From: Hahella chejuensis KCTC 2396
GTDB lineage: Bacteria; Pseudomonadota; Gammaproteobacteria; Pseudomonadales; Oleiphilaceae
NCBI RefSeq assembly: GCF_000012985.1
Contig: NC_007645.1
Location: 5,788,581 to 5,852,580 of the forward strand
Reading direction: 5' to 3'
Length of the DNA: 64,000 nucleotides
Part shown: piece by piece, positions 27,842-48,854 of the stretch
Numbering within the stretch: position 1 is the first letter of the stretch
Layout: each line of letters starts with the position of its first letter
Notes under the pieces: model-generated
What the model saw: only the letters and a program-made list of their open reading frames with translations
The model's database searches: none
Told to the model about the DNA's origin: nothing
Program-made: the position numbers and the translations under genes

Positions 27842-27851
27842 AAATCCTATG

Positions 27852-28152: not shown

Positions 28153-28469
28153 GTGAATCAACCATCCTTGAAATACAAGATAAAACAAGTGACAATGCTG
28201 CTTGATTGCTAAGCATGCTGTCAAGCTAGTAGTACCGGCTAGTTCTGGAGGTCTAATCGAATTAGACTATACCCCCATAATTGCTAAGCTAGTAAAATTT
28301 ACTTGCATTGTAATTTATTGTAACAAAAATGAAGGCAGACTACACAATCATTGTGTGCAGGGAAATGGAGCAATGAGGCATATAGAAGCGCTCTGTTACG
28401 AGTACACTGCAAAGTAGTCCCTACAGAACTGGAAAGCATTTTTCAGTAATGCAAAGGAAGTCATCAGGC
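28153..28469. other. Upstream region of the T6SS effector island
   Basis: No gene supported. It contains AT-rich promoter-like sequence (TTGCATTG at 28302 and nearby TAATTT/TAACAA), consistent with a promoter for the DUF6484 gene. No terminator or repeat was seen. Confidence 0.4.
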
Positions 28470-28982: not shown

Positions 28983-29021
28983 TTCTCATTGTCGTGTATC
29001 AGGATAAGGCGGTTTAGGACC

Positions 29022-30038: not shown

Positions 30039-30084
30039 TCAAAGTGACCGTCCATATAGCATCATTGAAAGCGAAGCTTTTCTT

Positions 30085-31122: not shown

Positions 31123-31149
31123 CGTAGAAGCATGTAGAGGTAAAAGTCT

Positions 31150-31932: not shown

Positions 31933-31945
31933 AAGGAAAGCTTCA

Positions 31946-32530: not shown

Positions 32531-32555
32531 AACGATGAGCATGTGGTGTTGAAAG

Positions 32556-33140
32556 ATGTATTACGCCTTCGACCGTGATTGCATTGGAAGATGGATTGAA
32601 GAGCCAGATGGAGATATTTCAGATGTCGACTGGTTTTACTGGAGGAGAGGGTCTGCTCTTACTGTGCCTCCTCCTACTCCACTGAAGTTTACGCTTCAGC
32701 CATATAATCCATACTCTGAAGATGATTCGCATCATATGCCTTCTTTTTTGAATGCTGCCGCTCCGATTTTCAGTGATGAGCTGATTAGCGCACTGCGAGA
32801 GTGTGGGGTTGATAGCCTTGATGTTTACGATCTTGAGCTAACTGATCCCGACAGCGACCAAGTCTATACACACTACAAAGTGGTGAATATTGTTAGCTTG
32901 GTCTCTGCCGCAGATATGAAAAGATCTATTGTTACGGGGCATGGGCCTACCAATTCGGCTTTGTACGATGTGGACTTTGACCGCTTGGTTGTTGACCCAG
33001 GAAGAACCAAGGGGCACAACTTTTTCCGCCTTGCGGAATCCACCAACATGCTGATCGCGCATGAAAGTGTGAAACAACATCTACAAGCCAAGGGTTTTAC
33101 CGATTTGGCTTTTTATAAGCTTGGCAACATCGCTACATAA
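32556..33140 (+). CDS. DUF1629-type putative immunity protein 2 (tandem paralogue)
   Basis: A 194-residue paralogue of the previous protein, exactly the same length and alignable end to end (MYYAFDRDCIGRWI, VDWFYWRRGSALT, NAAAPIFSDELI, ECGVDSLDVYDLELTDPDS, HNFFRLAESTNMLIAHESVKQHL). Differences concentrate in the middle loops, as expected for immunity proteins that match different toxin variants. It may protect against effectors of competing strains, or be a duplicate in divergence. Confidence 0.75.
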   Translation: MYYAFDRDCIGRWIEEPDGDISDVDWFYWRRGSALTVPPPTPLKFTLQPYNPYSEDDSHHMPSFLNAAAPIFSDELISALRECGVDSLDVYDLELTDPDSDQVYTHYKVVNIVSLVSAADMKRSIVTGHGPTNSALYDVDFDRLVVDPGRTKGHNFFRLAESTNMLIAHESVKQHLQAKGFTDLAFYKLGNIAT

Positions 33141-33176
33141 GCGTTCCGACAAAATTCAGGAAAACAGGAGAGTTTT

Positions 33177-33560
33177 ATGGCAGTCACCGTTTTCGCCAAT
33201 ACCCGTGGAATATCCCACAAAGGCAGCGGGGGTAAGAGCATTGCGTTTCCCGATGTTTGCAAGACTCCCACTCCAGGAGGCCCTGTGCCGATACCATATC
33301 CGAACCTGGCAATGTCTTCGGATCTGGTAAAAGGAACAAAAACCATCAAAACCGACGGGCAAATGGCGACGATCAAAACTGCGCAGTATTGTACGTCCAC
33401 AGGTGATGAACCAGGCACTGCTGGTGGTGGTATCAAGTCTGGAACCATTAAGAATACTGCAGAGTTTATGATGTATTCTTTTGATGTGAAGTTTGAAGGA
33501 AAAAACGTCTGCAGACTCGCCGACCCGGTGTTTCATAACAAAAAGAACACGGTGCTTTAA
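33177..33560 (+). CDS. DUF4150 PAAR-like spike tip protein
   Basis: A 127-residue DUF4150 protein: MAVTVFANTRGISHKGSGG, then SIAFPDVCKTPTPGGPVPIPYPNLA, the hallmark PxPIPYPN motif of PAAR-like proteins, and KVKFEG-type end NVCRLADPVFHNKKNT (residues 112-127). Such proteins cap VgrG spikes and attract effectors through DUF2169 adaptors. Here it is a free tip with no fused toxin, placed after the immunity genes. GGAGAG lies 7 bases before the ATG. Confidence 0.9.
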   Translation: MAVTVFANTRGISHKGSGGKSIAFPDVCKTPTPGGPVPIPYPNLAMSSDLVKGTKTIKTDGQMATIKTAQYCTSTGDEPGTAGGGIKSGTIKNTAEFMMYSFDVKFEGKNVCRLADPVFHNKKNTVL

Positions 33561-33561
33561 T

Positions 33562-34596
33562 ATGTCTGAGCAGCTCTCCTATAACCCAGAAGTGCTCCAA
33601 TTCTTTATCGAGGACGCAGCAGCGCTCTGGGATAGCTGGTGGGCGCAACGGCAAGAATCAACGCCAGACGAGTACTACATTGCCCAGCTTAAACAGCGGC
33701 TGAAACCTAATATTAAAGGCGTTAGGTTGCTGCGCGAATACGCCTGGGAAGAGCTTGAGGGCCTACTGGACAGTTCCCATGGAGGTGAGTATTTCGTGGG
33801 ATGCATGCTCTCTCTGGAGCCTTTCGACTTTAACCGATTTAAACAAATAGTCGATGCCGGCATAGAGTCGTACATCTTCTGGCATGCGTTATTAGATGCT
33901 TTGACATGGTCTCCCTCGCCAGAGGTTAAGCAGTTATGCTCTCGCATGGTGACCTCGGGTAAACCTGCCCATGCAGCTCTTGGATACTGCGCGCTTATGG
34001 CTATGGATATACAACCAAGCCTTTCCTGGAATGAGCTGATCAATGCCGCCCAAAAACAGAATAATGAAGTTGCTGTTCGCGGACTTTGTGAATACTGCAG
34101 TGCAGACGCGACATCAACATTGATCACTATGCTAGACCAAATGGAAATGAGCGAAAAAGCAGTCGTTCTGGAGCGTTTGGTCAAGCTAGGCGTACCAGCT
34201 GCATCACTACCTCTTGGGCAGTTTGTCTATGAGCCAGGCCCATACAGGGAAAGGCTACTAAAAATCGTTTTCCGGAATCTAGATGCAGACTCTGCAGACC
34301 ATTTAATGCGAGTGCTGCAATCAAAGCCGGAGCCAATACGCTCATGCTTAATTGCCGTGGGGGCAGCCAAGCGCAGAGACTTATTGCCCTGGGTGCTTCA
34401 ACAAATGGAAAATTTGGAACATGCCCGCATAGCCGGTTGGGCTGTAGAGCAAATACTAGGAATAGATTTTATGGAACTGGGTTGGTTGAACCAATCTGAA
34501 AGCTTGGACGAGGAATGGCTTAATAGCCCTGTTGATGCGGATCTGAATTGGCCAGATGTAGAGCTGGTGCGAAGAAGTGTTATTGATTACATATAA
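33562..34596 (+). CDS. TIGR02270-like HEAT-repeat protein of T6SS loci
   Basis: A 344-residue helical protein that starts 2 bases after the DUF4150 stop. WDSWWAQRQ, LERLVKLGVPAASLP and repeated 30-residue helical pairs (for example AALGYCALMAMDIQPSLSW and NLEHARIAGWAVEQILGID) match the TIGR02270 family, which carries HEAT-type repeats and occurs only next to T6SS adaptor and PAAR-like genes. The ATG at 33562 is chosen over the longer frame, which runs back into the DUF4150 gene. It ends 29 bases from the convergent defence operon. Confidence 0.8.
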   Translation: MSEQLSYNPEVLQFFIEDAAALWDSWWAQRQESTPDEYYIAQLKQRLKPNIKGVRLLREYAWEELEGLLDSSHGGEYFVGCMLSLEPFDFNRFKQIVDAGIESYIFWHALLDALTWSPSPEVKQLCSRMVTSGKPAHAALGYCALMAMDIQPSLSWNELINAAQKQNNEVAVRGLCEYCSADATSTLITMLDQMEMSEKAVVLERLVKLGVPAASLPLGQFVYEPGPYRERLLKIVFRNLDADSADHLMRVLQSKPEPIRSCLIAVGAAKRRDLLPWVLQQMENLEHARIAGWAVEQILGIDFMELGWLNQSESLDEEWLNSPVDADLNWPDVELVRRSVIDYI

Positions 34597-34624
34597 TATG
34601 AACTAGTACAGCCTAAATCAGACA

Positions 34625-36652
34625 TTAGTCATTTTCTACAGTTATTGCTAAAAGGAAATCTCTGGCGCGAGATATTGCCACATAATCTTCAAGCAAAGCT
34701 TTTCTTTCCGTAGAATTACCATTTAATATTACTGCAACAGCCTTGAACTCTAGTCCTTTCACTCTTTTTTTAGTTCCATATCGGATACCGGGAGCGGTTT
34801 CGCCAGGATCTTGCTTGTCTGCTTGTAGTTCATATATATCTACCCCTTCTCTGTTAAGGGAGTCGATGAAATATCTGGACCTGCTTGTTATGCAAATTTC
34901 ATGATCCTTTATATTACCTTTGCTTGAGCTCTTAATATCCACTATCCAGTTGGCAATCTCCGTGGCGGCTTGCTGAAATGATGTCACTTTTAAAACTCTT
35001 GGCGAAGCGCCTTTAAAAATAGACCTATCACCGTTAGTATTTGTTACTCCTTCGTCTAGATCGTCGATTGACAGTCCGGCTATTGTTGCATGAGCAAAGT
35101 TTCGAATTTGTTCACTCATTCTATAGTTAATTTTTAGACGGCGAGATCTCCCAATGACATTTATACCAGCATGGCGTAAAGATACTTGTGTGTTACTGTA
35201 TATCCTTTGATGTCCATCACCAACTAGGCACAAAGGGTTGGATGAGCTGCCATCAAGCTTGGACAATGACGCTACAAGACCAAGAGCAGTTAAACTAAAG
35301 TCTTGCAGCTCATCAACTAATACGTGTTTGTATTTTGGGTGCTGGCTGTTTTCAACTTCATTGAGTGCCATCCTTAATAATTCTTCGAAAGAAGCTATCC
35401 CTTCTTTATTAAGGAAAGCTTTCATCTCAACAAATATTGGCCAGAGAGATAACCTTTGAGTGCGTTTTATACGTGGTCGCCCCTTACGAAGAACTTCCAA
35501 ATACTTTCCTTCAGTCTCGATGCTCATCTTTTCTATAACTTCATAGAATTCATCTAAAATAAAGTTATGGGAGAACTCTGTTGTGACCGGCATGTCGCTC
35601 AAAAACTGTCTTAGCATAGAAGTGACAGTTTTATCATCTGATGTACGCAGGTTGAAGCTTGTCTTATGGCAAATATTCTTGGCTAAAAGATGTAAATTTA
35701 TTACATCAATATTATCCATATGCTCAGGAATCATTTGACCTAGCAAGCCTTTGATGGTTACTGCAAGGTTTTTTGTGAAAGTCGTAATGAGAATTTTTTC
35801 ATTAGGTTTAATCTGGCGGGCAAGCCACTGTGCTCTATGCATTAACACTACGGTTTTTCCTGTACCCGCTGCACCATTAACCTTCATTGGGCCTTGAATA
35901 TTCCACTCAACCAGTCTTTTCTGTGACGGGTGGAGGAACAATCTCCACTCAGCTATATCTCCTTGAAGTATTTCTCTTAAATGCTCTTCTCCTTCTATAA
36001 AAATGAGATTGGAGTAGTAAGTGCTTTCAGAGCCTGAGATTGTTTCGTGAGAAATTGTTGAAAGCTGAATTCCAAGCGTTTCCTCCATTGCCACATCAAG
36101 TGTTAAACCACAGGCAATACCATAAAGAATTTGTTTTGCTTCTTCTGGTAGGAAATCTGCAAGGCGTTCAAAGTCATCGTCGCACTTTACTGCTCGTACA
36201 GATGGAATTAGAACTTTCGGTATCCCGGCATAAAAGAGGTCTTCATCAGATAGTGCTGATAGAGGATACTGAGAGCAATTTTCGATTGACTCATCTTGTT
36301 CCTTGGATAAATTGATAATATCAGTGTTCAAGACATGGAAGTAACCGAGTCTTTTGTTTTCTAAAAATAGCTTATTCTTACACCACTGATAGGCCTCGTC
36401 ATGGTGATCTACATACACGACAATATACGTGCTGCCTTCCTCCGGAGCGATAAGAATTGCTCTATAATCGTCTCCTAAACGAGCGCTTCTAACTCTAGAG
36501 TCTTGAGCCATCTCTAATTTTTCGAGATTTATGCTTGCCTGAGTATGATCTTCTTCAAATTTACGAACAAGCTCAACCAGCTTTTTATGTACCTTCTTGG
36601 GTAGGGTCCTTGACTGAAATAATACATCCCGATGAAGAGCTAGTTGAGCCAC
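34625..36652 (-). CDS. SF1 (UvrD-like) helicase with RelE-like N-terminal domain
   Basis: A 675-residue protein, last gene of the defence operon. Residues about 8-100 look like a RelE/ParE fold: LPKKVHKKLVELVRKFEED, then SRVRSARLGDDYRAILIAP and YIVVYVDHHDEAYQW. The SF1 motor follows: Walker A VNGAAGTGKTVVLMHRA near residue 260, Walker B VLVDELQDFS, motif III CLVGDGHQRIYSN, LKINYRMSEQIRNF, RVKGLEFKAVAV and YVAISRARDFLLA, all intact. GTG start with CTGGAG 6 bases upstream. RelE-like domains on SF1 helicases may contact ribosome or nucleic acid; here the use is probably in defence. Confidence 0.82.
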   Translation of the reverse strand: MAQLALHRDVLFQSRTLPKKVHKKLVELVRKFEEDHTQASINLEKLEMAQDSRVRSARLGDDYRAILIAPEEGSTYIVVYVDHHDEAYQWCKNKLFLENKRLGYFHVLNTDIINLSKEQDESIENCSQYPLSALSDEDLFYAGIPKVLIPSVRAVKCDDDFERLADFLPEEAKQILYGIACGLTLDVAMEETLGIQLSTISHETISGSESTYYSNLIFIEGEEHLREILQGDIAEWRLFLHPSQKRLVEWNIQGPMKVNGAAGTGKTVVLMHRAQWLARQIKPNEKILITTFTKNLAVTIKGLLGQMIPEHMDNIDVINLHLLAKNICHKTSFNLRTSDDKTVTSMLRQFLSDMPVTTEFSHNFILDEFYEVIEKMSIETEGKYLEVLRKGRPRIKRTQRLSLWPIFVEMKAFLNKEGIASFEELLRMALNEVENSQHPKYKHVLVDELQDFSLTALGLVASLSKLDGSSSNPLCLVGDGHQRIYSNTQVSLRHAGINVIGRSRRLKINYRMSEQIRNFAHATIAGLSIDDLDEGVTNTNGDRSIFKGASPRVLKVTSFQQAATEIANWIVDIKSSSKGNIKDHEICITSRSRYFIDSLNREGVDIYELQADKQDPGETAPGIRYGTKKRVKGLEFKAVAVILNGNSTERKALLEDYVAISRARDFLLAITVEND

Positions 36653-36692
36653 ATATATCTCCAGGCCGAAGAAATAGATTTAAAATTATCAG

Positions 36693-38348
36693 TTATACTT
36701 TTTTTCTAGAGCTTGATTTTGCCCTTTTTGTGCCTTTTTTCTTGTTTGACTTAAGAGATATTAGTGAATTTATAAAGACGCTTAAAGTCTCGTCAAAATA
36801 GTCCTGTGACAGCGTTTCAATAGGGCAGGCAATTGCTTCCAGATATACAGAGCTGTTATCCATTTTTATACGTAAAACGTCTTTGGTTGAATACGATAAT
36901 TTGAGAAGCTCAATAGCCTTCTCTTTTGTCAGCCTCTCTTTTTGACTTTTCACTTTAAGATCGATGATCTTGACTTTCATCGTGACTAGACTGGCACCAT
37001 ATAGCTGCTGCTCTGCCAATGCGATCCTCGTGTTTTTTGGAAGCTGCATTAACAAGTCCGCTCTAAGTTTTAAAGCAATCCCTTGTTTATTGCTATTAAT
37101 GATGCTTGCAACTAACTTAGAGTTCTGCGCATATTCAACTAATCCCGGCTTTTCTAACTCTGTGCAGCCTTGGTCATTTTCCTCAACTGACGGAGATATG
37201 GTTTCTCTGATGCAGTCCAACATAAACTTTTCTCGCCAGTAGAGCTTGGTATTTACATCATCAGTGTCTCGGTATAAATGATCAAGACTTGCTTCTTTTT
37301 TGTTGATCCAACCGGAAATGATTTCACCATATAGAAAGAATAGGCCAGGATGATTAATTTTCTCTTCCGCTAATAATGAGGCATAGCCATAGTTCCATGC
37401 GGCAAAAAATCCAGCCAACCAAGAAACAGCTTCCCCTGGAGCGGAAGGACTTTCTTTCATCCTATTTATAGAATTTTCATCGGGATTCTGTATGTGAAGG
37501 AGTATGGCCCTAAGAACAATATTCTTCTCATCATTAAGCACAGGCATGTCACGAATACCTCTGCTTATATCCTTTACCATGGACGACCAAGCAGCTATAT
37601 CTTCTCTAGAGCTCAAATTGTCAGGAAGCGCTCGTACAAAATTATCTATGATCTGCTCTCTAACCCAGCTGCCATTGCCTTCATTTTCTATTAGTACTTT
37701 TAAATAGGTTGATATTATGGTAGGCGTAGTTGGGTCGCTTTTCTCAAATTGAGACGCAAGCTGGCTGGAAATAGATTCAATATTTTTTCTGAAGTCTGAA
37801 TTACAGTAGGCTTTAATTGTCTCCAATATTTCATTTTCTTTTTTATTGGAAAATATTAAATAGTTTATTCCTGCTATAGCTGAATCAAAATGCCTATACT
37901 TCTTGCTAAGCGCTCTTTGGTCAAGCTTTGGTAGAAAAAATTCAGCTCTGATGGTGCTATTTTCTATTAGCTTTGATTCAGGTAATGTATCGAATTTGAA
38001 AAGGCAAAAAGGAACGTTCTCGTATCCGCGACAAAGCAGGTCTTCGTACTCATCTTTGCTTTTAAAAAGTATTCTTGATACATCTGCTAGTGGTATTGAA
38101 CCAGCGTCTATTTCCGAATTATTTATCTCTATTAAAGCGGGTCGGGATAGAGGGGTGCCAGATTGCCAAACTAATGAAAGCTGATTTTCTTCAAAATTGG
38201 CAATTCCACCTTCACTAGTTTGACCAACTAAGTCTGGTACAATAAGCCCCTGATCTAGTATACGTAGTAGATGCCGCGCACTGGTCAGTAAGTAACGGGG
38301 TTTTGTCTCAATGCCGGAAAATAAGTCTACTGTGAGTGATTCTGCCAT
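36693..38348 (-). CDS. Unrecognised 551-residue protein of the DISARM-related operon
   Basis: I do not recognise a family. The N-terminus MAESLTVDLFSGIETKPRYLLTSARHLLRILDQGLIVPDL suggests a compact alpha/beta unit; a central helical region runs from about residue 150 to 400 (FLYGEIISGWINKKEASLDHLY); the C-terminus is basic (SNKKKGTKRAKSSSRKKV) and could bind nucleic acid. It overlaps the preceding helicase gene by 22 bases and the downstream helicase starts 40 bases later, so its role is tied to the two SF1 helicases. It might be a nuclease or scaffold replacing DrmC or DrmE, but no active-site pattern is evident. Confidence 0.7.
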   Translation of the reverse strand: MAESLTVDLFSGIETKPRYLLTSARHLLRILDQGLIVPDLVGQTSEGGIANFEENQLSLVWQSGTPLSRPALIEINNSEIDAGSIPLADVSRILFKSKDEYEDLLCRGYENVPFCLFKFDTLPESKLIENSTIRAEFFLPKLDQRALSKKYRHFDSAIAGINYLIFSNKKENEILETIKAYCNSDFRKNIESISSQLASQFEKSDPTTPTIISTYLKVLIENEGNGSWVREQIIDNFVRALPDNLSSREDIAAWSSMVKDISRGIRDMPVLNDEKNIVLRAILLHIQNPDENSINRMKESPSAPGEAVSWLAGFFAAWNYGYASLLAEEKINHPGLFFLYGEIISGWINKKEASLDHLYRDTDDVNTKLYWREKFMLDCIRETISPSVEENDQGCTELEKPGLVEYAQNSKLVASIINSNKQGIALKLRADLLMQLPKNTRIALAEQQLYGASLVTMKVKIIDLKVKSQKERLTKEKAIELLKLSYSTKDVLRIKMDNSSVYLEAIACPIETLSQDYFDETLSVFINSLISLKSNKKKGTKRAKSSSRKKV

Positions 38349-39691
38349 GAAATAGATTCCAATATATCTGTCTCATTTACTGGAAGATGAGTGAGGATAT
38401 CAGGTTTCTCATCTAGATGGGATGAGTATGTTAAGAATAGTGCGTCTCTGGCCCTGGAACACATTACATACATGTTCATTTTGAAATTGTCCAGTTCGCT
38501 ATTGTCTACTTGATAATCTTGTAGCTCAGGTAAAAAAACTATATCAAACTCAAGACCTTTACAGCTTTGATAGTTCAAAACTGTTACCGTTCCAACCTGA
38601 TCGAACACTAAGTCGTTGGGGTCTTTAGCCTCATCCTGGTTGGATGAGTATGTCTGCACGCTATAACGATCGCCTATCAAGGCCTCTAGCTTAGCTACAA
38701 CTTCCTTCCTTATGGAATCCCGTGGAACGATAACGCCAACTTCAGCGGGGGACCTCGAATTTAGGACCTTCACTATATGGCTGATTTGTCCATCCAGATC
38801 GGTAGAGCTAATTAGTAAGGGCTTATCTCCGTGCCGGTCAGGTAACAATGGACACCCTGTGGAGAGGCCTACGTAGAAGCAGTTTGCGAGTTTGGCTATC
38901 TGTAGAGTATTACGAAAATTCTTTGTTAGAAGAAATTCATTCTCTTTTGAGATGGATAGTTCTTCTTTAATATTATTCAACGTCGAGTTATTCTCAGTAA
39001 GTCTTTGATTTTCATCTGCTAGTATCGTTAAGTTTACGTCATTCAGCACCAGACTAACCCTTTTAAAAAAGTGATACATTTCCGGGGGGAAGTCTTGGCC
39101 CTCATCAACTATGAGATGTCCCCAATCGGTCAATGGGTACTCTCTCATTGGGTGTGTCACTAGTGATATGGACATTTTCTCCCAATCATACAGAAATGGG
39201 GCTAAGCGTGGAGGAAAAATAGATTGATCGCTTTTGTCGTTAATCCACTGAGAGAAACGCTGACCAATTTGTTGATGCAGTTCATGGCTTATCCACCATT
39301 TTTTTTCATAATTGTCCCATTGAGCTCCAAGTCCCTTCGCTGCCGCCTTTTCTTCGAAAGGACAGTCTAGGTATACTCTTCCTGGATAGGATACTTTCGA
39401 TGCTATTTTATTGGTTTTCCACCACTTGAATAACCAGCTATGGAGAGTACAGGTCTTCACAGCCTCTCCATCGACTTCAACTGCATTGGATGTATACTTT
39501 TGAAGTACTCTGTTGTACATGAGTACAGTTACGCTTCTTTTTCTTTTCAGTAATGTGCCCGCACGAAGAAAAGCGAGCACTGTTTTTCCTGTACCAGGAG
39601 GCCCGGAAATTAATATATTGCCGGACATTGGCGCATCAAGATAGATAGTCTCTTGCTCGTCACTGATCTGTCTAGAGTTAGGCATCCTCAT
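38327..39691 (-). CDS. SF1 helicase with DUF5710-like insertion
   Basis: A 454-residue helicase from the ATG at 39691 (the frame is open to 39766 inside drmB). Walker A LISGPPGTGKTVLAFLRA starts near residue 30; Walker B HLIVDEGQDFPPEM, TILADENQRLTENN, LTKNFRNTLQIA, YQSCKGLEFDIVFL and YVMCSRARDALFL complete the SF1 set. Residues about 100-140 hold an insert, RVYLDCPFEEKAAAKGLGAQWD followed by KKWWI, matching DUF5710 (YLxVPxxEKxxAKxxGAxWD). It differs from the other SF1 helicase of the operon in lacking the RelE-like part. Start overlaps drmB by 14 bases. Confidence 0.82.
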   Translation of the reverse strand: MRMPNSRQISDEQETIYLDAPMSGNILISGPPGTGKTVLAFLRAGTLLKRKRSVTVLMYNRVLQKYTSNAVEVDGEAVKTCTLHSWLFKWWKTNKIASKVSYPGRVYLDCPFEEKAAAKGLGAQWDNYEKKWWISHELHQQIGQRFSQWINDKSDQSIFPPRLAPFLYDWEKMSISLVTHPMREYPLTDWGHLIVDEGQDFPPEMYHFFKRVSLVLNDVNLTILADENQRLTENNSTLNNIKEELSISKENEFLLTKNFRNTLQIAKLANCFYVGLSTGCPLLPDRHGDKPLLISSTDLDGQISHIVKVLNSRSPAEVGVIVPRDSIRKEVVAKLEALIGDRYSVQTYSSNQDEAKDPNDLVFDQVGTVTVLNYQSCKGLEFDIVFLPELQDYQVDNSELDNFKMNMYVMCSRARDALFLTYSSHLDEKPDILTHLPVNETDILESISWQNHSQ

Positions 39692-41513
39692 GAGAAAAAC
39701 TAGTTCCTTCCGTTGCTCTGATTTGTCGGATTGTGCTTGTGAAATAGCCTTCGCCAGAAACGTCACCTAACAATAGCTTTCTGTCTAACAACAAGTTATT
39801 CATTGTACAGCTGGTTTCTGACACGAGAGAGCATGAGTGGCAGGCCGCCTTGTTAAGTCCCATCACTCCCTGTGTTTCCATTTCACTACACACAGGGTCG
39901 TTTGAGCACCAGCATGCAGTTTCTAAGGCAGCAGCAATCGTCGCATTTAATTTATCTACTTGCCCCTGCTGAACTAGTCCACCAAGACTGCCCTCAGAAT
40001 CTGAGTCTGCTGTATATATGAGAACTCCAGCCTGATTTTCTGCTGCGTATATACGCTCTCGTATGGAGCCACTGGAATAACCACTTTGAAAACTTAGCTG
40101 CCTAATCATCAAATGTGCGAATGTATGAATTAGAAGCAACCTAGGAGTTGGCGTGTCAAGATAGTTGACTTGGCCTTCATCATAACGCTTCTTTATCGGG
40201 TCAATTCTCGAACTAATAAAGTCAGCCTCTTTTCTCTCCCATTGTTCCATTTCTGACTCAGAGAATTGGAAAAATATCCCTTCACCGTATACTTCAATCG
40301 CTGGCAACCAGTTAATGTCATTATTCCCGCTTGGGCTGACGAGAGTATTTCCACCCGGATTCACCCTCTCGAACCCTAAAAATGCTCTTACTTCTCTTAG
40401 ACGGTCAAGCAATACAATTCGATCAAATTTTTTCTCTAAGTCCCACTGGGTGGCTTGATGAAAGCCATGCTCTACTCTGGCAGAAAACGTATTTTCTCTA
40501 TGAGACTCTATATTCTCGGATATAAGGAATGACCACTCTGCTTCTTGGATCTCATAGTGGTCTATAGGTACTTTTGTATCGGAGGGTGTCTGGTGACTTT
40601 CGTTACTTGCAGCATGTTCCAGGTCCTCTAATGTACAATTTTCTTCATTTGTAATTATTTTGGCGAGCAACTCAGCTGAGTTCTTGTCTATGCTTAGTCG
40701 ATTTATATATTCATCAAAAAGACTATTGCTTTTTATTTTTTCGGTTATTGAGCTATCAACTCTACTATTATCTATGGGGATATCTAATGCAGAGCGTACG
40801 ACTGGAAAATAAAGGTTACTGGCACCACGCTGTAGTACCACTGGAGTTGCAGTGCAAGTGCCCAATTGCATCTTTTGCCATGGCTGCCTTCCTGTACAAC
40901 TTAAGCCTATATTTGAAAGCGCACTTGGTGACGTAAGCATTTCGAAGTTTCTACTAGCTCCACAAGATTTACATTCAACACGTAAGGCATCTAAGCCGCT
41001 TCCTTTATTTGAGTCAGTGATAAAATAAAGATAGTTAGCCTTTGATTCACAATGATTTCCTTTAGACGCTGCATGGGCCCATATATCCCAGGGCACGTCA
41101 TCCAAATGTCCTTCCTCACATGCAACGACAAATCTCATTGGTACAAGAACACGCTTTTTGCACTTCTCATATGGGCAGGTTGGCTTATCTTCCAACTCGT
41201 CTTTTAATCTTTGTTGGCTACTTTTACCCCATCGCACCATGTGTCGGCAGTTTGGACAAAACATCCACTTTGGAAACCTAATGGCGCTTATCGAGTGCTT
41301 GTAATTGTTTGATCCATACTCCTCTTTGTGAGGTGGAGCTTTTAATTTCTTTCTTAACAGGCGTGTGAGGCGATCTAATTTGATGGCTTCAAGGTTTTTA
41401 GGCCATCCAGCCAAGTCGGTTAGTAGTAAGGACTCCTCTCCTATGTCTAAAATAGCGCCAGGCCCAAAAGGGGTTATCAATTGAGAGCTTCTTACACTAC
41501 GGTCAATAGCCAT
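39678..41513 (-). CDS. drmB: DrmB-like DUF1998 protein (DISARM core)
   Basis: A 611-residue protein with the DrmB layout. N-terminus VRSSQLITPFGPGAILDIGEESLLL is the family signature; zinc-type cysteines lie at FCPNCRHMVRWG, CPYEKCKKRV and VECKSCGAS; the DUF1998 domain near the C-terminus has GVLIYTADSDSEGSLGGLV, AACHSCSLVSETSCTMNN. In DISARM, DrmA and DrmB form a complex that loads onto foreign DNA ends. The ATG at 41513 is chosen because GGAG lies 6 bases upstream, just past the drmA stop; the frame is open to a TTG at 41525. Confidence 0.85.
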   Translation of the reverse strand: MAIDRSVRSSQLITPFGPGAILDIGEESLLLTDLAGWPKNLEAIKLDRLTRLLRKKLKAPPHKEEYGSNNYKHSISAIRFPKWMFCPNCRHMVRWGKSSQQRLKDELEDKPTCPYEKCKKRVLVPMRFVVACEEGHLDDVPWDIWAHAASKGNHCESKANYLYFITDSNKGSGLDALRVECKSCGASRNFEMLTSPSALSNIGLSCTGRQPWQKMQLGTCTATPVVLQRGASNLYFPVVRSALDIPIDNSRVDSSITEKIKSNSLFDEYINRLSIDKNSAELLAKIITNEENCTLEDLEHAASNESHQTPSDTKVPIDHYEIQEAEWSFLISENIESHRENTFSARVEHGFHQATQWDLEKKFDRIVLLDRLREVRAFLGFERVNPGGNTLVSPSGNNDINWLPAIEVYGEGIFFQFSESEMEQWERKEADFISSRIDPIKKRYDEGQVNYLDTPTPRLLLIHTFAHLMIRQLSFQSGYSSGSIRERIYAAENQAGVLIYTADSDSEGSLGGLVQQGQVDKLNATIAAALETACWCSNDPVCSEMETQGVMGLNKAACHSCSLVSETSCTMNNLLLDRKLLLGDVSGEGYFTSTIRQIRATEGTSFSHEDA

Positions 41514-41515
41514 TT

Positions 41516-44500
41516 TTAACTCCAAAGATCAATTTCAGTTTCTGTGTCGACATTTCTCATAGAGTTTAGAGTTGGCCATAGGCCATTTCTCTTTGGAGCT
41601 TTGAAAGCTTTAATGAGGGGATGGAATTGTTTGCTCGGCGACTCATAACGATTAACGTATCCCTGCTCAGCTTTCTCCTCCCATCTCGAAGCTAATTCAT
41701 CCAAGTAATGCATTACTTCATCAATTTCTCTTTTCTCAAGCCCCTTCATGGCCTCCGTAATTCTTGTCTTTAACAACTCGATTTGGCGCTGGATCTCAGG
41801 GGATTTTAAAGAGAAGTTCCCAGCGCTTTCGTTGCTCCCCATGTTTTCTGAAGCTCTTATGACAGAAACTAGCGCTGCGTGAAGTGCTCTTTGACGTGCG
41901 GGTAAAGCCCACGGAGTAACGCTAGTTGGTTCTACATAGCGATACAGCGCCTGATGATAGGTTGAAAAAGTTTCGTAGTGAGAGCGATCTCGGGGTTTTG
42001 ATGGCGATAGTAACGTTACAACAATTGCAGGGGGTCTTGTTTTGTCCCGTCCAACCCGGCTGGATGCTTGAATATACTCAGCTGTGGTCTTGGGCTGCCC
42101 ATTGATAAGCATTATGCCAAGACGACCAATATCAACGCCCACTGAGATCATATTTGTGCAGGGGAGTATGTCTATGGCATGTTTTTTATCTGCTTGTATT
42201 TTTAACTTTTCTAGCACCTCGGGTATACGAGTCCCTTTTATATTAGCCGAAAGCTCTTCTATGGTGTCACACTGCCTGGGGGAATGGTTTCCTGCGATTA
42301 CTTTTATACGAGCGGGAATGTCATCCCTTGCTAGAGTCATGGTTTTACCCAGCTCCCGGCGACTATTATGGTAAATAGGAAGGGTCCACCAAGTATCGCG
42401 ACATTGGCCATGTTGCCCCGTTGTTATTGGGGCTTGTAATAAGGCCGCAGAGGTCTGGATTAAAGCAGTTTGCCCCGTATGCCCTGATGGCATGACGCCG
42501 ATGTACAATCTTCCAGGTGTATTTCTGTCCTCACTTGAAAAGAAAGAGTCCGAGTCATTTAAGCCTGGAGAGGGAAATACCTGTACCGTACGCCCAAACA
42601 AACATTTAACCTGTTGGTTCGCTGCGCGAATAGTAGCAGTTGCGGCTATGACTTTAGCGCGTCCGCCTAGACTCCTGATAATTGAGTCTATCGCAGCCTC
42701 ATAAAGTCCTGCGATGGTCCCTAAAGGACCCGAAATCAGATGTAGTTCATCCTGAATAATTAGACTGGGGGGACAGAAAGATTGTCGGCCATTAGGAGAA
42801 GAACCAAAGAATACGCTTGTTTCTTGAAGCCAGGGTAGACGAGCAAACTTATCAACCGTTCCAATCAGCAGTGTTGGAGGAGCTTTATATAGTGCTTCGT
42901 CAACTATTTGGATCGGAAGTCGTTCGTGAAATTCGCATGAATCCGTGGGGCAGAAAAATGAAAAGCTTTGAACTGTTGCATTAACACCATAGTCATGAGC
43001 GTCTGAAGACTTGGTGTGTGGGACAATAGATGTTCCGCACCAGGGGCAACTGTGCAATTGGAACGGATTCTCTGGCTTGGGCTCGTCAAGCATTAGCTCA
43101 TACTTTTCTTTGGCTCCTGGTCTATCGTTATCCCCCGTGGAAAAACAATTTGGAGTACTGTCTTGTCCCACCCACAATCCAAGTGATATAACTTCATTCC
43201 CGAGTAGCTGCACATTTTCTCTTCTAATTGTTTCTAGTGCACAAATCATCGTCCCTGCTCTTTGAAACTGCTGAGAAGTAAGCAATCTTAAGGTGTATCT
43301 TTTAATTACAGCCGTGCCTCCACCTTTTGGCCCCTCTTCAAGACGACGGTAGATTATCTCCCAAGCAGCTATACTTAAGTACGCTTCTGTTTTTCCTCCG
43401 CCTGTTGGAAACCATAGTAAGTCAACAATGTCACGTGATTCAGGTATATCACCCACAGAGTTGTATGCGAGCGACTCAATCACTAAGAGCTGAAATGCCA
43501 GCTGGAATGGGCGCCATCTTTTGGATTCGTACTTTGAATCCATATAATCTGGTGTGGAAAAAGTTTTGCTATTTCTTCCTCTTACGACTCCCCCGAAGTC
43601 TTCACTGCTGTGAACCATTTGCCGTAGCATTGTTACGTTCGCAAGCCGGAAAGCGGTATGTGCATTCTTATTATTTGATAGCACTTCAATACCAGAATAC
43701 ATACGGGTTAGTGAATCATGAAGTCTATTTATGATTCTCTCTTTTGCTCTTTCTAAATGCTTTGGAACTTTTGTTTTATTTTGATGTGAAATCCAGCTTC
43801 TGTAAGCATTTATTAGTGTTTTTAGTCCGTCCGTTAATTCAACGGAAGAGGTTTTATTGCTAGATATCCATTGTAGGCTGAATATTTTTTCCGGTATTTC
43901 AGGGTATTTTTTGAAGTCTATATCGGTGCCAAACCCAAACACCTCGCAGCAAGGTAGAAAGGTTGAGCTTATCCAGTTAGGACTGCTATCTGCTTGATCC
44001 CACTCAATCGCGCAGCCATGGCCCACTCCCCAGTTAATCCTTTCACTATATTGCAGCACAATTTCTTCTTGCTCTGGATCAAACTTAAAGCGGTCTGTAG
44101 ACGGGTACTCTTTAAAGCACCCCTCAACTGCCTCGCAGTATATTTTGGGTTGATATAGGCAATCTCTGCTATTAAGTATCTTATCGCTATTTACCTCATT
44201 AGAGAGCGCAATAGTTAGTATGTACCCCTTTCCTAACTCTCGTTTTCTAATGGACAATCTACCAGCGCCGTCAAATAGTGTAATTGTCTGGTTCTGTTGA
44301 TTCTGGCAGTCAAATACAAGATTAGTACTAAGTGGCTCCCGCTCCCACTCATTACCTGTTTGTGTATAGCGCCCGGCCGAAACTCTAAGCTTTAGAATAG
44401 CAATATCATTGGTTGCAAATGATATTGCCACTGACGATGGCTTAAACTCTGATGATAAGGCAATGGAACTGTCAACTTGATCGATTGTTTCGGAATCATC

Positions 44501-44665
44501 CTCATCGCCCTCATCCTGCTCTACGGCCTTGGGAAACAGTACTCCCATAAGGTATCTTTTATGGGGTTTGTCGGTAAGAACTTCTTTCTCTCCGCCTAGG
44601 GGACCGACGAGCTCCTTTTCTAAAAGCATTACGATATCGCTTCGGGGGTCATTTAACTGGATCAT
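41516..44665 (-). CDS. drmA: DrmA-like DISARM SF2 helicase
   Basis: A 1049-residue SF2 helicase. Walker A is LLWFPTGGGKTEAYLSIAAW near residue 415; the DEAD-type motif is LIIQDELHLISGPLGTIAGLYE near 640; the helicase C-terminal part has MISVGVDIGRLGIMLINGQPK, EYIQASSRVGRDK and RDRSHYETFSTYHQALYRYVEPTSVTPWA, a stretch typical of DrmA. An HSCPWCGTSI cysteine pair sits in the insert between the two RecA lobes. AGGA lies 8 bases before the ATG. It is followed immediately by drmB, the order found in all DISARM classes. Confidence 0.87.
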   Translation of the reverse strand: MIQLNDPRSDIVMLLEKELVGPLGGEKEVLTDKPHKRYLMGVLFPKAVEQDEGDEDDSETIDQVDSSIALSSEFKPSSVAISFATNDIAILKLRVSAGRYTQTGNEWEREPLSTNLVFDCQNQQNQTITLFDGAGRLSIRKRELGKGYILTIALSNEVNSDKILNSRDCLYQPKIYCEAVEGCFKEYPSTDRFKFDPEQEEIVLQYSERINWGVGHGCAIEWDQADSSPNWISSTFLPCCEVFGFGTDIDFKKYPEIPEKIFSLQWISSNKTSSVELTDGLKTLINAYRSWISHQNKTKVPKHLERAKERIINRLHDSLTRMYSGIEVLSNNKNAHTAFRLANVTMLRQMVHSSEDFGGVVRGRNSKTFSTPDYMDSKYESKRWRPFQLAFQLLVIESLAYNSVGDIPESRDIVDLLWFPTGGGKTEAYLSIAAWEIIYRRLEEGPKGGGTAVIKRYTLRLLTSQQFQRAGTMICALETIRRENVQLLGNEVISLGLWVGQDSTPNCFSTGDNDRPGAKEKYELMLDEPKPENPFQLHSCPWCGTSIVPHTKSSDAHDYGVNATVQSFSFFCPTDSCEFHERLPIQIVDEALYKAPPTLLIGTVDKFARLPWLQETSVFFGSSPNGRQSFCPPSLIIQDELHLISGPLGTIAGLYEAAIDSIIRSLGGRAKVIAATATIRAANQQVKCLFGRTVQVFPSPGLNDSDSFFSSEDRNTPGRLYIGVMPSGHTGQTALIQTSAALLQAPITTGQHGQCRDTWWTLPIYHNSRRELGKTMTLARDDIPARIKVIAGNHSPRQCDTIEELSANIKGTRIPEVLEKLKIQADKKHAIDILPCTNMISVGVDIGRLGIMLINGQPKTTAEYIQASSRVGRDKTRPPAIVVTLLSPSKPRDRSHYETFSTYHQALYRYVEPTSVTPWALPARQRALHAALVSVIRASENMGSNESAGNFSLKSPEIQRQIELLKTRITEAMKGLEKREIDEVMHYLDELASRWEEKAEQGYVNRYESPSKQFHPLIKAFKAPKRNGLWPTLNSMRNVDTETEIDLWS

Positions 44666-44768
44666 ATTGCATTCCTAAACCAGTAGTGTCTTTTGTTGTC
44701 TCATCCTACGACCTTGGCAATCAAATTGATCCGGACAATTGGCGGACAAATTTAGTCTCAATCTTTCT

Positions 44769-46421
44769 TTAGGGAAAAATCCGGGTGTCAACTGCCAGCT
44801 TTAAAAGGTTGCTCTCTAGCCGGACTAACCCTCTAAGCCCTAAGGTTTGGCAGGTTGGGTTTATATCTCTTCGTGCTATTCTTTGGACTGACTCTATAAA
44901 GCTAGTGTCAACTTCGCCTTGTTTAGCCATAGTAAAAACAGCTCGTTTAAAAGTTACTCCAGCATTTAACTCGACGCTTTCGCTTGGAACTCTAAAAAAA
45001 CTGCCAATAAACTCTTTCCTTTCTAACGATAAAGTAGATTTGGTTGAGTCAACTCTAAGAACAAAAAGAGATGGGGAAATAAATAATAAACTAGGGTTAA
45101 TCTTCAATCGAAAGTAGCACTCGTCGTGGGCTTCTATGATTGGAAAGGTCGAGCCACTCAGCTTGTTAGCCAAGTTCCCAAACTCTTGAGAAAGGGAGGG
45201 GGTGCATATCTGAGCCCAGCCTCCGCCAATACTAGCCACTTTGATTGCTGCTTGGTCTGACGTAGTCTTAAAATTCTTACTTAGTGATGCGAGAAAAACT
45301 AGGATTTCAATTTCTCTACCGGTTAGAGAAATTGATTGAGTTCGCTCTTTACCGGGCCTACCACTTAATAGACTTTCGCCATAGACTGCTGGTAATGTAA
45401 GGCTTCCAATTTCGTCGTCTCCCCAAGTCTCTTCCTGGTAGGAAACAGGGATACTGCCTATGAATTCTTGCCAATCAGAGATACACGAAAAATCACTAAC
45501 TAATGCATCTATATACGCCATTTTTCCATCGGTTGTCTTGGCGTTGATGAGTTCCTGCTGCTCGAACCATACTAACTCTTGATAATGTGACAGCGATTCG
45601 ATCAGCTTGAAGAAGCCTTCAGTTGTTAGCTGAAGTTGAAATATTTTGATTTGGTAATTCGTGAAAGAATGATTTGCTCCAGCCCCTTCAACTTCTCTGT
45701 AGGGAGCAACTGAACGAAGAAGCTTAAAGTCATAATGTTCGTCTGCAGTTAGCCCTGTTTCTTCGTATATCTCCCTCTTAAGTGCAAATTTGAATGCTTC
45801 AGGATAATCCGCAGCGAAAGGGCTCTGAAGAGCTTCCAGCGGATTGGGGATGCTTGCTTGCCTTAAGTCCTCTTGAGTCATTCTCCCGCCAATCAATACA
45901 TAGTTTTTTAACCCGCTGCGCTTCTTATCTTCCCTGGCCCGAAGCAATATTTTTCCAGCGATATGGATAATACCCCAAGCTACGTGAACAAAACGGGTCG
46001 GCTGAGCTTTTCCAGTGAAATGGTGACGACAACGCTGGAGCTCTAGCGTTCTTAATAGAGTACGCTGCTTCTCAGTGTAAGGTGAGTGTTGTTCATGACC
46101 TTGCCAAAAGGCTTTTTCAAAGTAGTATTGGTCTGGATCAGAGAGGGATATTAACAGCGAACGAGCAAATAGGGAGGCAGGAAACGAAACGAATTGCCAC
46201 CTTCCATTTTCAAGCTGATCTTCGCTAATTAACCTTGATATACGAAGTATCCGTTCAAGAACAAGAAGATGTGCCTCAGCTATATCACTGGACACGTGAT
46301 TTTCTAGAATCAATACTTCTACAAGCTTAGAGCGACTAACTGATGTGAACTCTCCCCCCTCTTCTGAATAGAGCGGAAGGTGTTTATAAATCGTCTGAAA
46401 AATCCCTGTTACAATGCTCAT
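44769..46421 (-). CDS. Nudix-domain protein, first gene of the DISARM-related operon
   Basis: A 550-residue protein. Residues 1-140 look like a winged helix plus helical part. A Nudix fold covers about 145-310: YVLIGGRM at residue 177 and ALKREIYEETGL near 214 are the two halves of the Nudix box, but about 25 extra residues lie between them, so the box is split. The C-terminal 190 residues (SLTGREIEILVFLAS and beyond) are unassigned. Nudix enzymes cleave nucleoside diphosphate derivatives; in defence this suggests making or removing a nucleotide signal. A gap of 103 bases separates it from drmA. A promoter is visible at 46458-46487. Confidence 0.72.
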   Translation of the reverse strand: MSIVTGIFQTIYKHLPLYSEEGGEFTSVSRSKLVEVLILENHVSSDIAEAHLLVLERILRISRLISEDQLENGRWQFVSFPASLFARSLLISLSDPDQYYFEKAFWQGHEQHSPYTEKQRTLLRTLELQRCRHHFTGKAQPTRFVHVAWGIIHIAGKILLRAREDKKRSGLKNYVLIGGRMTQEDLRQASIPNPLEALQSPFAADYPEAFKFALKREIYEETGLTADEHYDFKLLRSVAPYREVEGAGANHSFTNYQIKIFQLQLTTEGFFKLIESLSHYQELVWFEQQELINAKTTDGKMAYIDALVSDFSCISDWQEFIGSIPVSYQEETWGDDEIGSLTLPAVYGESLLSGRPGKERTQSISLTGREIEILVFLASLSKNFKTTSDQAAIKVASIGGGWAQICTPSLSQEFGNLANKLSGSTFPIIEAHDECYFRLKINPSLLFISPSLFVLRVDSTKSTLSLERKEFIGSFFRVPSESVELNAGVTFKRAVFTMAKQGEVDTSFIESVQRIARRDINPTCQTLGLRGLVRLESNLLKLAVDTRIFP

Positions 46422-46457
46422 GTCCCTGAAAACTGATACGGTGATTGGATGAGCAGG

Positions 46458-46487
46458 ATATTAGCAAATATATTTTGTTGGGTTCAA
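46458..46487 (-). promoter_or_regulatory. Candidate sigma-70 promoter of the defence operon
   Basis: On the minus strand TTGAAC (46482-46487), 18 bases, then TAATAT (46458-46463), about 35 bases before the Nudix-gene start. Both hexamers match four or five of six consensus positions. Confidence 0.45.
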
Positions 46488-46641
46488 TAAAGTCAGGAGA
46501 AACTCTGGAGGGACCCGATATTAGGGGGCCGAGCTCTAAAGTTAATTGGCTGCTACTCTTTCACTGATTTTGATGTCAAAAGAGCCAGTCGATATAGGAT
46601 AAGACTTAAGGAAAATCTTTGTGGGAGGTTATGGATGGCTG

Positions 46642-47067
46642 ATGATGGATGCTAAAACTGATGTGTTGACCCCTGAACAAAGAAAATTATGCATGTCTAA
46701 AATCAGGGGAAAAAACACAAAGCCTGAGCTGTTACTCAGAAAGGCTCTATGGTCCATTGGCCTCAGATACCGTTTACAGGGAAAAATTACTGGTCGGCCA
46801 GATTTGATTTTTTCAGGCCCAAAAGTTGCTGTTTTTGTTGATGGCTGCTTCTGGCATGGGTGCCCAGAACACTATCGTACCCCCCAAAACAATCAGGCTT
46901 TCTGGAAAGAGAAGCTTCGGAGGAACATGTGCAGAGATAAGGCTGTGAATAGAATATTAGTGGATAACGGGTGGCTAGTGGTAAGACTATGGGAGCACGA
47001 AGTGAAGTCAGATCTAGAGTGTTGTGTTAGCAGAATATTGGCGGCGTTAAGAAAGCAGGCGGGATAA
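46642..47067 (+). CDS. vsr: Very short patch repair endonuclease (Vsr)
   Basis: A 141-residue Vsr. Key blocks are LTPEQRKLCMSKIRGKNTKPELLLRKALW, given in two halves around residues 7-35, RYRLQGKITGRPDLIFSGPKVAVFVDGCFWHGCPEHY, with catalytic D (GRPDLIF) and the CFWHGCP zinc motif, and WLVVRLWEHEV. Vsr nicks T:G mismatches left by deamination at methylated cytosines, so it pairs naturally with the convergent cytosine methyltransferase. The start is unclear: GTG 46621 and ATG 46642 or 46645 are in frame; 46642 best fits the family N-terminus. Confidence 0.9.
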   Translation: MMDAKTDVLTPEQRKLCMSKIRGKNTKPELLLRKALWSIGLRYRLQGKITGRPDLIFSGPKVAVFVDGCFWHGCPEHYRTPQNNQAFWKEKLRRNMCRDKAVNRILVDNGWLVVRLWEHEVKSDLECCVSRILAALRKQAG

Positions 47068-47073
47068 TCTAGG

Positions 47074-47092
47074 AGCCAATCTGGCTTTTTAG
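47074..47092 (+). terminator. Small terminator between vsr and the methyltransferase
   Basis: AGCCA-ATC-TGGCT followed by TTTTT directly after vsr. The stem is only 5 bp, but it lies in the narrow gap between two convergent genes. Confidence 0.45.
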
Positions 47093-47093
47093 C

Positions 47094-48077
47094 TCAAGCA
47101 GCCTGCTCAGATTTCTTTGCGTCGGTGCGGGCAATCGTCCTGAAAATGGCTTCCATTACTTCAGCGCAGACTCCGTTTCCACATAGTTTAACTTTCTCTC
47201 TGCGGTTTCCAACAGGCAGAGAATGCTCTTTTCCCGCGCCCATGGCGTGTTTAAGTTCGTCAGGCTGAAGCATCCTTAAATAAGGAACATCGTCATGCCA
47301 AGTTACCAGCCCAAAGCGATCTAATGTTGTTATTGTGCGAAGAGGCGCTGCCAACGACTGCCATCCCCCAGCATAGTCACTTCCGTAGTAGACAATGATG
47401 AATGGGACGTTGCGTCCTAGAGCCTGAATTGCACGTTCAGCCCTCTCTAATGTTGCTTTTGCTCGGCTAGGTTTATGCAGCGGCGCAGATTTATACTCTG
47501 CGTTCCAATCAATTATGTCCGCTGCACACTTATACTGTGGTGTCATTCCAGTTAGTAAGTCGGCCTCAGATAAGGAAATACCCTCTAAATTGCATATTAG
47601 GAACATTCGCTTTCTTGCTTGGCCCGAGCCAAATGTAGCTGAGTTGAGCAGCAAATCACTCACCTCATAATTCAGTGACTTGATCGATGAAATTAGCTCG
47701 TTATGTCTTCCCCATTTTTTCATTCGATTAACATTTTCCACGATAACCCAGCGAGGGAGCATTGCCTCAATCCAGGGAATAATGCCTATTGCTGTTTCTT
47801 TGCTACTTTCGTTTCCTGGACGAGCGCCTCTAGCAATGGAGTGGGAAGTGCATTCAGGCGATGTCAGAAGAACATCTGGCTTAAATTTTTTAGCCAAGAG
47901 GATGGGGTCTGTATCTTCTATTTTGCTGTGTATGACTTCAGCAGTTGGAAAGTTTGCTTGATAGGTTTGGACGGCCAAATCCCACGCATCAATTCCAAGA
48001 AGGGGTTTGCCACCGCCACGTACTGCACCGCGAGCTCCAAATCCTCCTCCGCAAAATAGGTCTACAAAAGTTGGCAT
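47094..48077 (-). CDS. DNA cytosine-5 methyltransferase with PEC catalytic motif
   Basis: A 327-residue C5-methyltransferase. Motif I VDLFCGGGFGARGA (residues 4-17), the catalytic loop LLTSPECTSHSIARG near residue 75, ENVNRMKKWG near 115, and GSGQARKRMFLI near 150 (the QxRxR motif VIII). The usual PCQ is here PEC-T, i.e. the nucleophile Cys is preceded by Glu, as in a minor subgroup. The C-terminal target region is short. It lies beside Vsr and the DrmA/DrmB operon; class 2 DISARM uses a 5mC enzyme (DrmMII), so it is the likely self-marking partner of this island. Confidence 0.9.
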   Translation of the reverse strand: MPTFVDLFCGGGFGARGAVRGGGKPLLGIDAWDLAVQTYQANFPTAEVIHSKIEDTDPILLAKKFKPDVLLTSPECTSHSIARGARPGNESSKETAIGIIPWIEAMLPRWVIVENVNRMKKWGRHNELISSIKSLNYEVSDLLLNSATFGSGQARKRMFLICNLEGISLSEADLLTGMTPQYKCAADIIDWNAEYKSAPLHKPSRAKATLERAERAIQALGRNVPFIIVYYGSDYAGGWQSLAAPLRTITTLDRFGLVTWHDDVPYLRMLQPDELKHAMGAGKEHSLPVGNRREKVKLCGNGVCAEVMEAIFRTIARTDAKKSEQAA

Positions 48078-48500
48078 GGGAATTTACTGTCTCTTTTTTG
48101 CATAGGAAATTGAAAGCCGATTCTACCAAGTCATTTTTAACATAACCAGGTTCGCTCTTTACTATAGCTGGTATGAGATGTGTACTCTTTTGAATCCCAG
48201 CTAAACTGTGGCGTAGGTTTTTAGAGTTTGAATCGCCATCCAGTGCTGTAATCAAACCTCTCGATTAGTCCGCCATGTAACTAGCTGTTTACAAAGGAAA
48301 AGTAATTTTGGAAAGTCGCGGACTTCAAGGTTAGCGGAGAGCGAGGGAGGAGAGAGAAATGGCCAGGAGAGAGCGAAACAGGGGCAAACACCCGGTTTTG
48401 GGATGAGCCACCAAGTCCGCGAGAACCCGCAGGAGCCCGCGACAGTACGCAGGAGCAGGCAATAAAAAAGGCCAACCCGAGAAGGTTGGCCTTTCAAATT
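48078..48500. other. Interval between defence island and ssrA
   Basis: No gene supported. It contains the ssrA terminator and, around 48428-48456, three CGCAGGAGC-like copies in 40 bases. As the sequence directly downstream of a tmRNA 3' end, this is the usual insertion point of genomic islands, but no copy of the ssrA 3' end was seen elsewhere in the window. Confidence 0.45.
48465..48494 (-). terminator. Intrinsic terminator of ssrA
   Basis: On the minus strand AAAGGCCAACC pairs with GGTTGGCCTTT across a short loop and runs into TTTTTTATT. It begins about 7 bases past the tmRNA CCA end. Confidence 0.88.
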
Positions 48501-48854
48501 TGGTGGAGACGGCGGGAATTGAACCCGCGTCCGCCAGTCCTCTGCCATTGGCTCTACATGCTTAGGACCCTCTATTCAGTTAACCCGTTACGACCCGAAG
48601 GGCAGGGTGTAAAAGGCGATCTCCTGATGTTTCGCGTGTACAACTGGAGCAGCTGCACAGGCTAGCTTGTTATGGGTGACACTCATAAAAACCGCGGTAC
48701 AAGCACCTTGGCATGAGTGCTAGAGCCCTTAGGCTGCTAGAGCGTAAGTTTCGTCGTTTGCGACTATTTTTTACAGTAATTGGAGTACGAGTGTTACTGC
48801 CCACTCGACATGCACCTCAGGGTTTGTAACCGGCGTCGAAACCAAGTCGTCCCC
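48501..48854 (-). ncRNA. ssrA: tmRNA (ssrA), tag ANDETYALAA
   Basis: A one-piece tmRNA of 354 bases that rescues stalled ribosomes. The 5' GGGGACG pairs with CGTCTCC before the encoded ACCA end to form the acceptor stem. The tRNA-like part holds TTGGTTTCGACGCC at the 5' side and GGGTTCAATTCCCGCC as the T-arm. The tag reading frame (48761 down to 48729) encodes ANDETYALAA and a TAA stop. A promoter at 48864-48892 and a strong terminator at 48465-48494 frame it. Confidence 0.96.

Follow-up and report, generated by a model that had tools for sequence, protein, structure and literature searches.

A DISARM-related operon of Hahella chejuensis and a candidate lineage with a DrmA-DrmB-SF1 helicase-X551 core

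Class 1 DISARM (defence island system associated with restriction-modification) consists of DrmD-DrmMI-DrmA-DrmB-DrmC, and structures of the Serratia DrmAB exist (7s9v and 7s9w). The trigger loop of Serratia DrmA is at residues 176-232 (PMC9142583). Class 2 features the cytosine methyltransferase DrmMII and DrmE. In ARMADA type II, the last gene is ArmD, which has a RelE-UvrD architecture and is needed for non-abortive defence (PMC12458937). We analysed a window of 64,000 nucleotides of Hahella chejuensis KCTC 2396 (contig NC_007645.1, positions 5,788,581 to 5,852,580), the genome of which is a single contig of 7,215,267 bases. The window holds an operon with drmA, drmB, a gene for a superfamily 1 (SF1) helicase and a gene for a 551-residue protein, X551. 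We read it, with a probability of roughly 60%, as an anti-phage operon that targets DNA and belongs to a third lineage related to DISARM, the conserved machine of which would be DrmA, DrmB, the SF1 helicase and X551. An anti-phage function of the operon is in itself highly probable. All eight genes were intact open frames:

34625-36652, minus strand: P0001, RelE-UvrD, a RelE-like domain fused to a UvrD helicase; ArmD-like effector candidate
36693-38348, minus strand: P0002, X551, fourth core gene, 551 residues
38327-39766, minus strand: P0003, third core gene, SF1/UvrD-like helicase with a DUF5710 insert
39678-41525, minus strand: P0004, drmB, DUF1998/MZB zinc-binding partner of DrmA
41516-44665, minus strand: P0005, drmA, superfamily 2 (SF2) helicase of the YprA family, 1049 residues
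44769-46421, minus strand: P0006, Nudix protein, operon head; accessory, conservation with the system not seen
46621-47067, plus strand: P0008, Vsr mismatch endonuclease
47094-48077, minus strand: P0007, cytosine-5 (C5) methyltransferase, DrmMII-like

We searched plasmid records with the proteins and scanned genome contigs with five DrmA seeds, keeping the best 80 loci, a set that gives no measure of prevalence. Frames called on all loci were searched with profiles; the X551 profile was first built on three sequences and later on seven. The X551 family had 22 members, including that of the window, among 1341 frames of the sampled loci, and no member was found outside the X551 place among these frames. 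The order drmA, drmB, SF1, X551 was kept in all 22 loci with a detected P0002 relative, and neighbours within this quartet overlapped or were at most 64 bases apart in every one. Plasmids with such operons came from Photobacterium (two) and Deinococcus (one), and a Streptomyces plasmid carried drmA-drmB-SF1. According to record titles and taxonomy lines, the quartet loci belong to seven phyla (Pseudomonadota, Myxococcota, Actinomycetota, Bacteroidota, Chlorobiota, Planctomycetota and Deinococcota). Pairwise distances correlated with those of DrmA at 0.96 for DrmB, 0.93 for SF1 and 0.82 for X551, and these correlations were equalled in 0 of 1000 permutations; the four genes thus share an evolutionary history as well as a fixed order.

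A DrmA tree of 97 rows (80 scan loci, 16 plasmid loci and the window), unrooted and made by a quick method, was split by one 100% branch into 71 and 26 rows. The 71-row side held all 22 quartet loci and all 25 drmA-drmB-SF1 loci; the 26-row side held all 7 class 1 loci and all 8 DrmE loci. The window DrmA was placed off the class 1 branch. The quartet label required at least 6 changes on starred branches, which implies that losses or transfers occurred. Neighbours were counted within 7 kilobases (kb) at stated score limits, on the same strand except for Vsr, ArmD and YprA. By this count a NERD-helicase accompanied 17 of the 22 quartets and Vsr 7, and DrmC, DrmD, DrmMI and DrmE accompanied none. 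Class 1 loci had DrmD (6 of 7), DrmMI (7 of 7) and DrmC (4 of 7), and none had SF1, X551 or a NERD-helicase. NERD-helicases were near 2 of the 8 DrmE loci, and SF1 and X551 near none.

These data support the further DISARM class that the initial annotation had envisaged, in that two accessory genes stand in fixed order after drmB and, at the limits used, were near none of the 7 class 1 or 8 DrmE-type loci. The accompanying expectation that the accessory genes co-occur with drmA and drmB was borne out for these two: P0003 and P0002 follow drmB in 22 of 22 loci, but the Nudix gene was near drmA in only 1 of 97, the window itself. A separate conserved DISARM-related lineage is thus very probable in our estimate, and the sample gives good support for one that has a core of its own. 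We found no description of a DISARM-related type with the core DrmA-DrmB-SF1-X551; the quartet operon suggests such a type, because the four-gene core recurs in several phyla with exchangeable partner genes.

Other genes were seen beside drmA in the sampled loci. A sigma-70-type factor lay just 5' of drmA in actinomycete drmA-drmB-SF1 operons (L008 8123-11944, L033 6300-9944, L041 8560-9948, L047 8385-9923 and L056 8811-10007); it is annotated in L008, and regions 2, 3 and 4 were recognised by Pfam in four of five others scanned, with none in L043. This DISARM-like actinomycete operon may bring its own sigma factor. Of the 97 loci, 17 had, near drmA, a protein like the 1587-residue one of L064 (3685-8448), which has a TmtA-like N-terminus and an SF2 helicase C-terminus. 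In 7 of the 25 drmA-drmB-SF1 loci (L028, L033, L043, L044, L045, L050 and L055), long YprA-type frames (1620-2146 residues) lay upstream of drmA on the opposite strand.

The eight proteins were scanned with the hidden Markov models of Pfam, PADLOC and NCBIfam. For PADLOC the best 25 families per protein were considered; P0001, P0003 and P0007 have 14, 7 and 25 weaker ones outside these. DrmA was certain (PADLOC DrmA 684 bits; NCBIfam DrmAS 865.5 bits, below the curated cutoff of 950), as was DrmB (NF038324, DrmB_fam, 475 bits, cutoff 240; MZB 39.9 bits), so the DISARM hallmark of a DrmA helicase with a separate DrmB DUF1998 protein is present. P0004 probably starts at its residue 5, an ATG. 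Further claims of the initial annotation also stood: two distinct SF1-type helicases are present (P0003, SF1/UvrD-like; P0001, UvrD), and none of the families listed for any of the eight proteins is DrmC, DrmD or DrmE. One DrmC query had no match in the genome at E<=0.001, in a search without a positive control. The six minus-strand genes do overlap or nearly abut, with overlaps of 22, 89 and 10 bases, a gap of 40 bases between P0001 and P0002, and one of 103 bases between the Nudix gene and drmA. We regard a single transcript as plausible, because promoter-like matches (19 vs 26.5 in shuffles) and terminator-like matches (15 vs 13.5) were at chance level.

Like class 1, the window has DrmA and DrmB with helicase motifs, an acidic segment at the place of the trigger loop and an aligned methyl-sensing valine. 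Unlike class 1, it has no recognised DrmD (an SNF2-like helicase), DrmMI or DrmC (a phospholipase D nuclease) among the families listed, the quartet has two extra core genes, and its DrmA is on the opposite side of the tree. The motifs are intact (GGGKTEA at 422, DELH at 639, SSRVGR at 868), and the trigger-loop-like segment comprises residues 46-74. Against Serratia DrmA (7s9v), strong alignment began at window residue 138, with a weak piece pairing window 15-70 with Serratia 144-201; most of the first 140 residues of Serratia DrmA therefore have no counterpart in the window. The 7 class 1 rows were also shorter than Serratia DrmA at the N-terminus. Residues before the RYL motif had a median of 68 in class 1 and 42.5 in quartets, and the trigger-loop segment was likewise shorter in quartets (median 40.5 vs 58), yet acidic in both groups (median D/E 30% in quartets and 28% in class 1; 38% in the window). 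The alignment stopped at window 1041 and Serratia 1298, and the methyl-sensing V1296 of Serratia falls on window V1039, provided that the last columns are ungapped; 93 of the 97 rows have V in this column. By analogy with Serratia DISARM, DrmA of this lineage is expected to load on free single strands in a methylation-sensitive manner, because the acidic segment and the aligned valine are kept. Current annotation may overlook the lineage, since the closest relatives of the window DrmA carry no annotation more specific than "helicase-related" or "DEAD/DEAH box helicase family" protein, and this DrmA itself falls under the NCBI cutoff.

In the mechanism that we propose, autoinhibited DrmAB would, like that of Serratia DISARM, load where incoming unmethylated DNA has a free 5' single strand, and P0003 would lengthen the unwinding. 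X551 would hold the single strand or a nucleotide and couple the helicases to an exchangeable helicase-fused enzyme, which would be a NERD-nuclease-helicase in most quartet loci examined and the ArmD-related RelE-UvrD helicase in the window. P0007 would mark host DNA, Vsr would repair its deamination products, and the Nudix protein would be an added head gene, probably regulatory.

That Nudix protein matched its family weakly (18.0 bits, cutoff 21.1); one relative (L122) reached 26.4 bits and two stayed under the cutoff. Among the 369 genomes of the class sample, 3 others had a relative (one of them a partial match), as did one plasmid record, and none were found in the 6 other genomes of the genus. 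One of three full-length relatives was beside PIN and Sel1 genes, the second beside weaker DUF3368 and Sel1 matches, both under cutoff, and the third preceded a type ISP restriction-modification gene by 113 bases, similar to the window's 103 bases to drmA. A hybrid with a nucleotide-signalling system, as the initial annotation had offered, is thus unsupported, given these contexts and the single Nudix gene near drmA. A head-gene regulator is possible by analogy with CapK/CapS, which lie upstream of immune operons (PMC13373217).

The C5 methyltransferase was confirmed (Pfam 102 bits; best PADLOC model DrmMII, PDLC02654, 234 bits), so the window has this class 2 feature. P0007 lies upstream of drmA on the same strand, with the Nudix gene and the opposite-strand vsr between them. 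A C5 methyltransferase near the quartet was not conserved in relatives and is outside the conserved core; P0007 is probably a self-marking enzyme. Vsr beside a C5 methyltransferase is a usual pairing, and P0008, a certain Vsr (146 bits, cutoff 98) that adjoins P0007, is probably its companion.

The usual quartet neighbour, 5' of drmA or 3' of X551, was a NERD nuclease fused to an SF1 helicase, and three of these proteins matched PADLOC RTasNERD-Hel at 142-161 bits. It is missing from the window operon and had no match in the genome at E<=0.001, again in a search without a positive control. The window has instead, at the 3' end of the operon, a RelE-UvrD helicase of the ArmD type, as ARMADA type II has. 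Unlike ARMADA type II, the island genes include no BrxHII-like ArmA, PglX-like ArmB or Vsr-fused ArmC; ArmC is a YprA with fused DUF1998 and Vsr, whereas the window's helicase and DUF1998 protein are two genes, as in DISARM. The P0001 N-terminus had a weak ParE/RelE match (E 0.18), and P0001 was the only full-length member of its family in its genome. Of 8 plasmid relatives with surroundings inspected, five (those of E. coli, Pseudanabaena, Microvirga, Cylindrospermopsis and Tsukamurella) come after YprA-type helicase genes and were taken as ARMADA, and three (L125-L127) were in other contexts. In a tree of 22 rows, P0001 joined ARMADA ArmD on a long branch, with a value of 93/89 (not starred), and actinobacterial ArmD-like genes near drmAB formed another group with the Tsukamurella one; starred branches forced at least 2 changes of the label "near drmAB without ARMADA". 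P0001 is a candidate ARMADA-type effector gene, and we tentatively suppose, at slightly less than even odds, that it stands in for the NERD effector.

It is less likely that two or three unrelated defence units lie side by side and share no mechanism: the quartet as a defence system, stray ArmD-like and Nudix genes, and a C5 methyltransferase/Vsr pair of the ordinary kind. The Photobacterium quartets without adjoining RelE-UvrD, Nudix or this methyltransferase are consistent with such an arrangement, as are the other contexts of Nudix and RelE-UvrD genes and the nature of the island as swapped cargo. However, P0001 is only 40 bases from X551 on the same strand, and 11 other loci had RelE-UvrD close to drmAB and no ARMADA YprA in the stretch inspected; 10 of these 11 fall on the same side of the DrmA tree as the window. 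In two of them RelE-UvrD was on drmA's strand: L056 (about 5 kb 3' of drmA) and L076 (about 2 kb 3'; other tree side).

ARMADA-type genes were also seen in other positions. In L071 (4052-23162) the quartet is flanked by ARMADA-type genes of the opposite strand, with BrxH-like and ArmD genes at one end and YprA at the other. On the Tsukamurella plasmid (L012, 15783-42634) a set that resembles ARMADA type II and includes a RelE-UvrD gene comes directly after a drmA-drmB operon. The Hahella genome has two long YprA-family helicase frames (5168683-5173269 and 3934503-3939224; 1966 and 1746 residues), possibly Druantia- or ARMADA-type systems.

An abortive system, in which DrmAB would sense phage DNA and the RelE domain of P0001 would cut mRNA or stop translation so that the cell is killed or stalled, is improbable. 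RelE-like motif positions were kept in 17 of 17 ArmD-like rows, but ArmD-bearing ARMADA protects without growth arrest (PMC12458937), and no antitoxin was found among the family matches of the neighbours scanned.

X551 was indeed without a known family, with no match over cutoff (best Pfam E 0.17, PADLOC 0.75, NCBIfam none). In the predicted model of the L072 relative, residues 13-172 have a DarT fold, followed by a helical middle; the DarT-type ADP-ribosyltransferase fold was weak in the window protein's own predicted model. The C-terminal domain is possibly, and weakly, secretion-chaperone/YbjN-like. In the sequence alignment, none of the 22 rows had Glu exactly at the DarT spacing, 3 had one that was off by one residue, including window E79, and none had His before the TN motif (NAD site). 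X551 seems from this alignment to have lost the DarT catalytic residues, and it has about an even chance of being a pseudo-DarT subunit that binds DNA or a nucleotide. That X551 is instead an active enzyme of the DarT type, with single-stranded phage DNA from DrmAB unwinding as the target of its ADP-ribosylation, is as improbable as the abortive system; the predicted fold, the nearly placed Glu and a DarT-annotated gene in Azospirillum would fit it, but the Glu spacing and the missing His argue against it, and unlike DarT, X551 has no DarG-type gene among the island proteins scanned. The Azospirillum gene (plasmid L011, 15069-15671) comes after drmA-drmB-NERD helicase and is a second link between DarT-type folds and DrmAB. 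A more specific form of the third-class reading, in which a dead DarT-like core adaptor passes the single strand from DrmAB and SF1 to an exchangeable effector (mostly NERD, here RelE), is a tentative proposal that we hold at about one chance in three. As for P0003, listed with 479 residues and a DUF5710 insert at 130-174, its relatives align from its residue 26-28, and its start is probably about 26 codons inside the listed open reading frame; relatives in L009, L024 and L072 have 373, 363 and 398 residues.

A class 2 DISARM decayed or trimmed by loss of drmC and drmE would explain the DrmMII-like methyltransferase close to drmA and drmB, but it is very improbable, as no DrmE was recognised among the families listed, the window DrmA groups apart from DrmE-type loci, SF1 and X551 were found with 22 loci that lack DrmE but with none of the 8 DrmE loci, and the reading frames are intact.

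If the third-lineage reading is true, it adds a third, phylogenetically separate DISARM architecture, found here in seven phyla, and bears on DrmAB defence without DrmC, a matter left open in PMC9142583. DISARM and ARMADA would then share interchangeable helicase-fused effectors, and a DarT-like fold would have a use inside a helicase defence operon.

The operon is swapped cargo beside ssrA, because the sibling genome G374 has other DNA between the same flanks:

25258-26685, plus strand: large serine recombinase of the mobile module, which is kept in the sibling genome without the operon
34599-48250: swapped cargo block, replaced by about 9.2 kb of other DNA in the sibling
48501-48854, minus strand: ssrA (transfer-messenger RNA), beside which the element sits

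The sibling matched window 24659-34598 at 92.7% and then again from 48251, and besides the large serine recombinase the shared module has RadC and genes of type VI secretion type. The 256 bases that run to the ssrA end recur about 77 kb upstream. The type VI secretion-type module (28989-34596) has DUF2169, weak ketosynthase-like, AHH nuclease (just under cutoff) and PAAR-like genes, and an Imm11 immunity gene (31946-32530) is followed by a second similar frame (32556-33140), the two being 64-66% alike in DNA. A second related element with other cargo (L108 628-17595; genome 5742627-5759594) has the 256-base right end and some of the left module in common with the window island.
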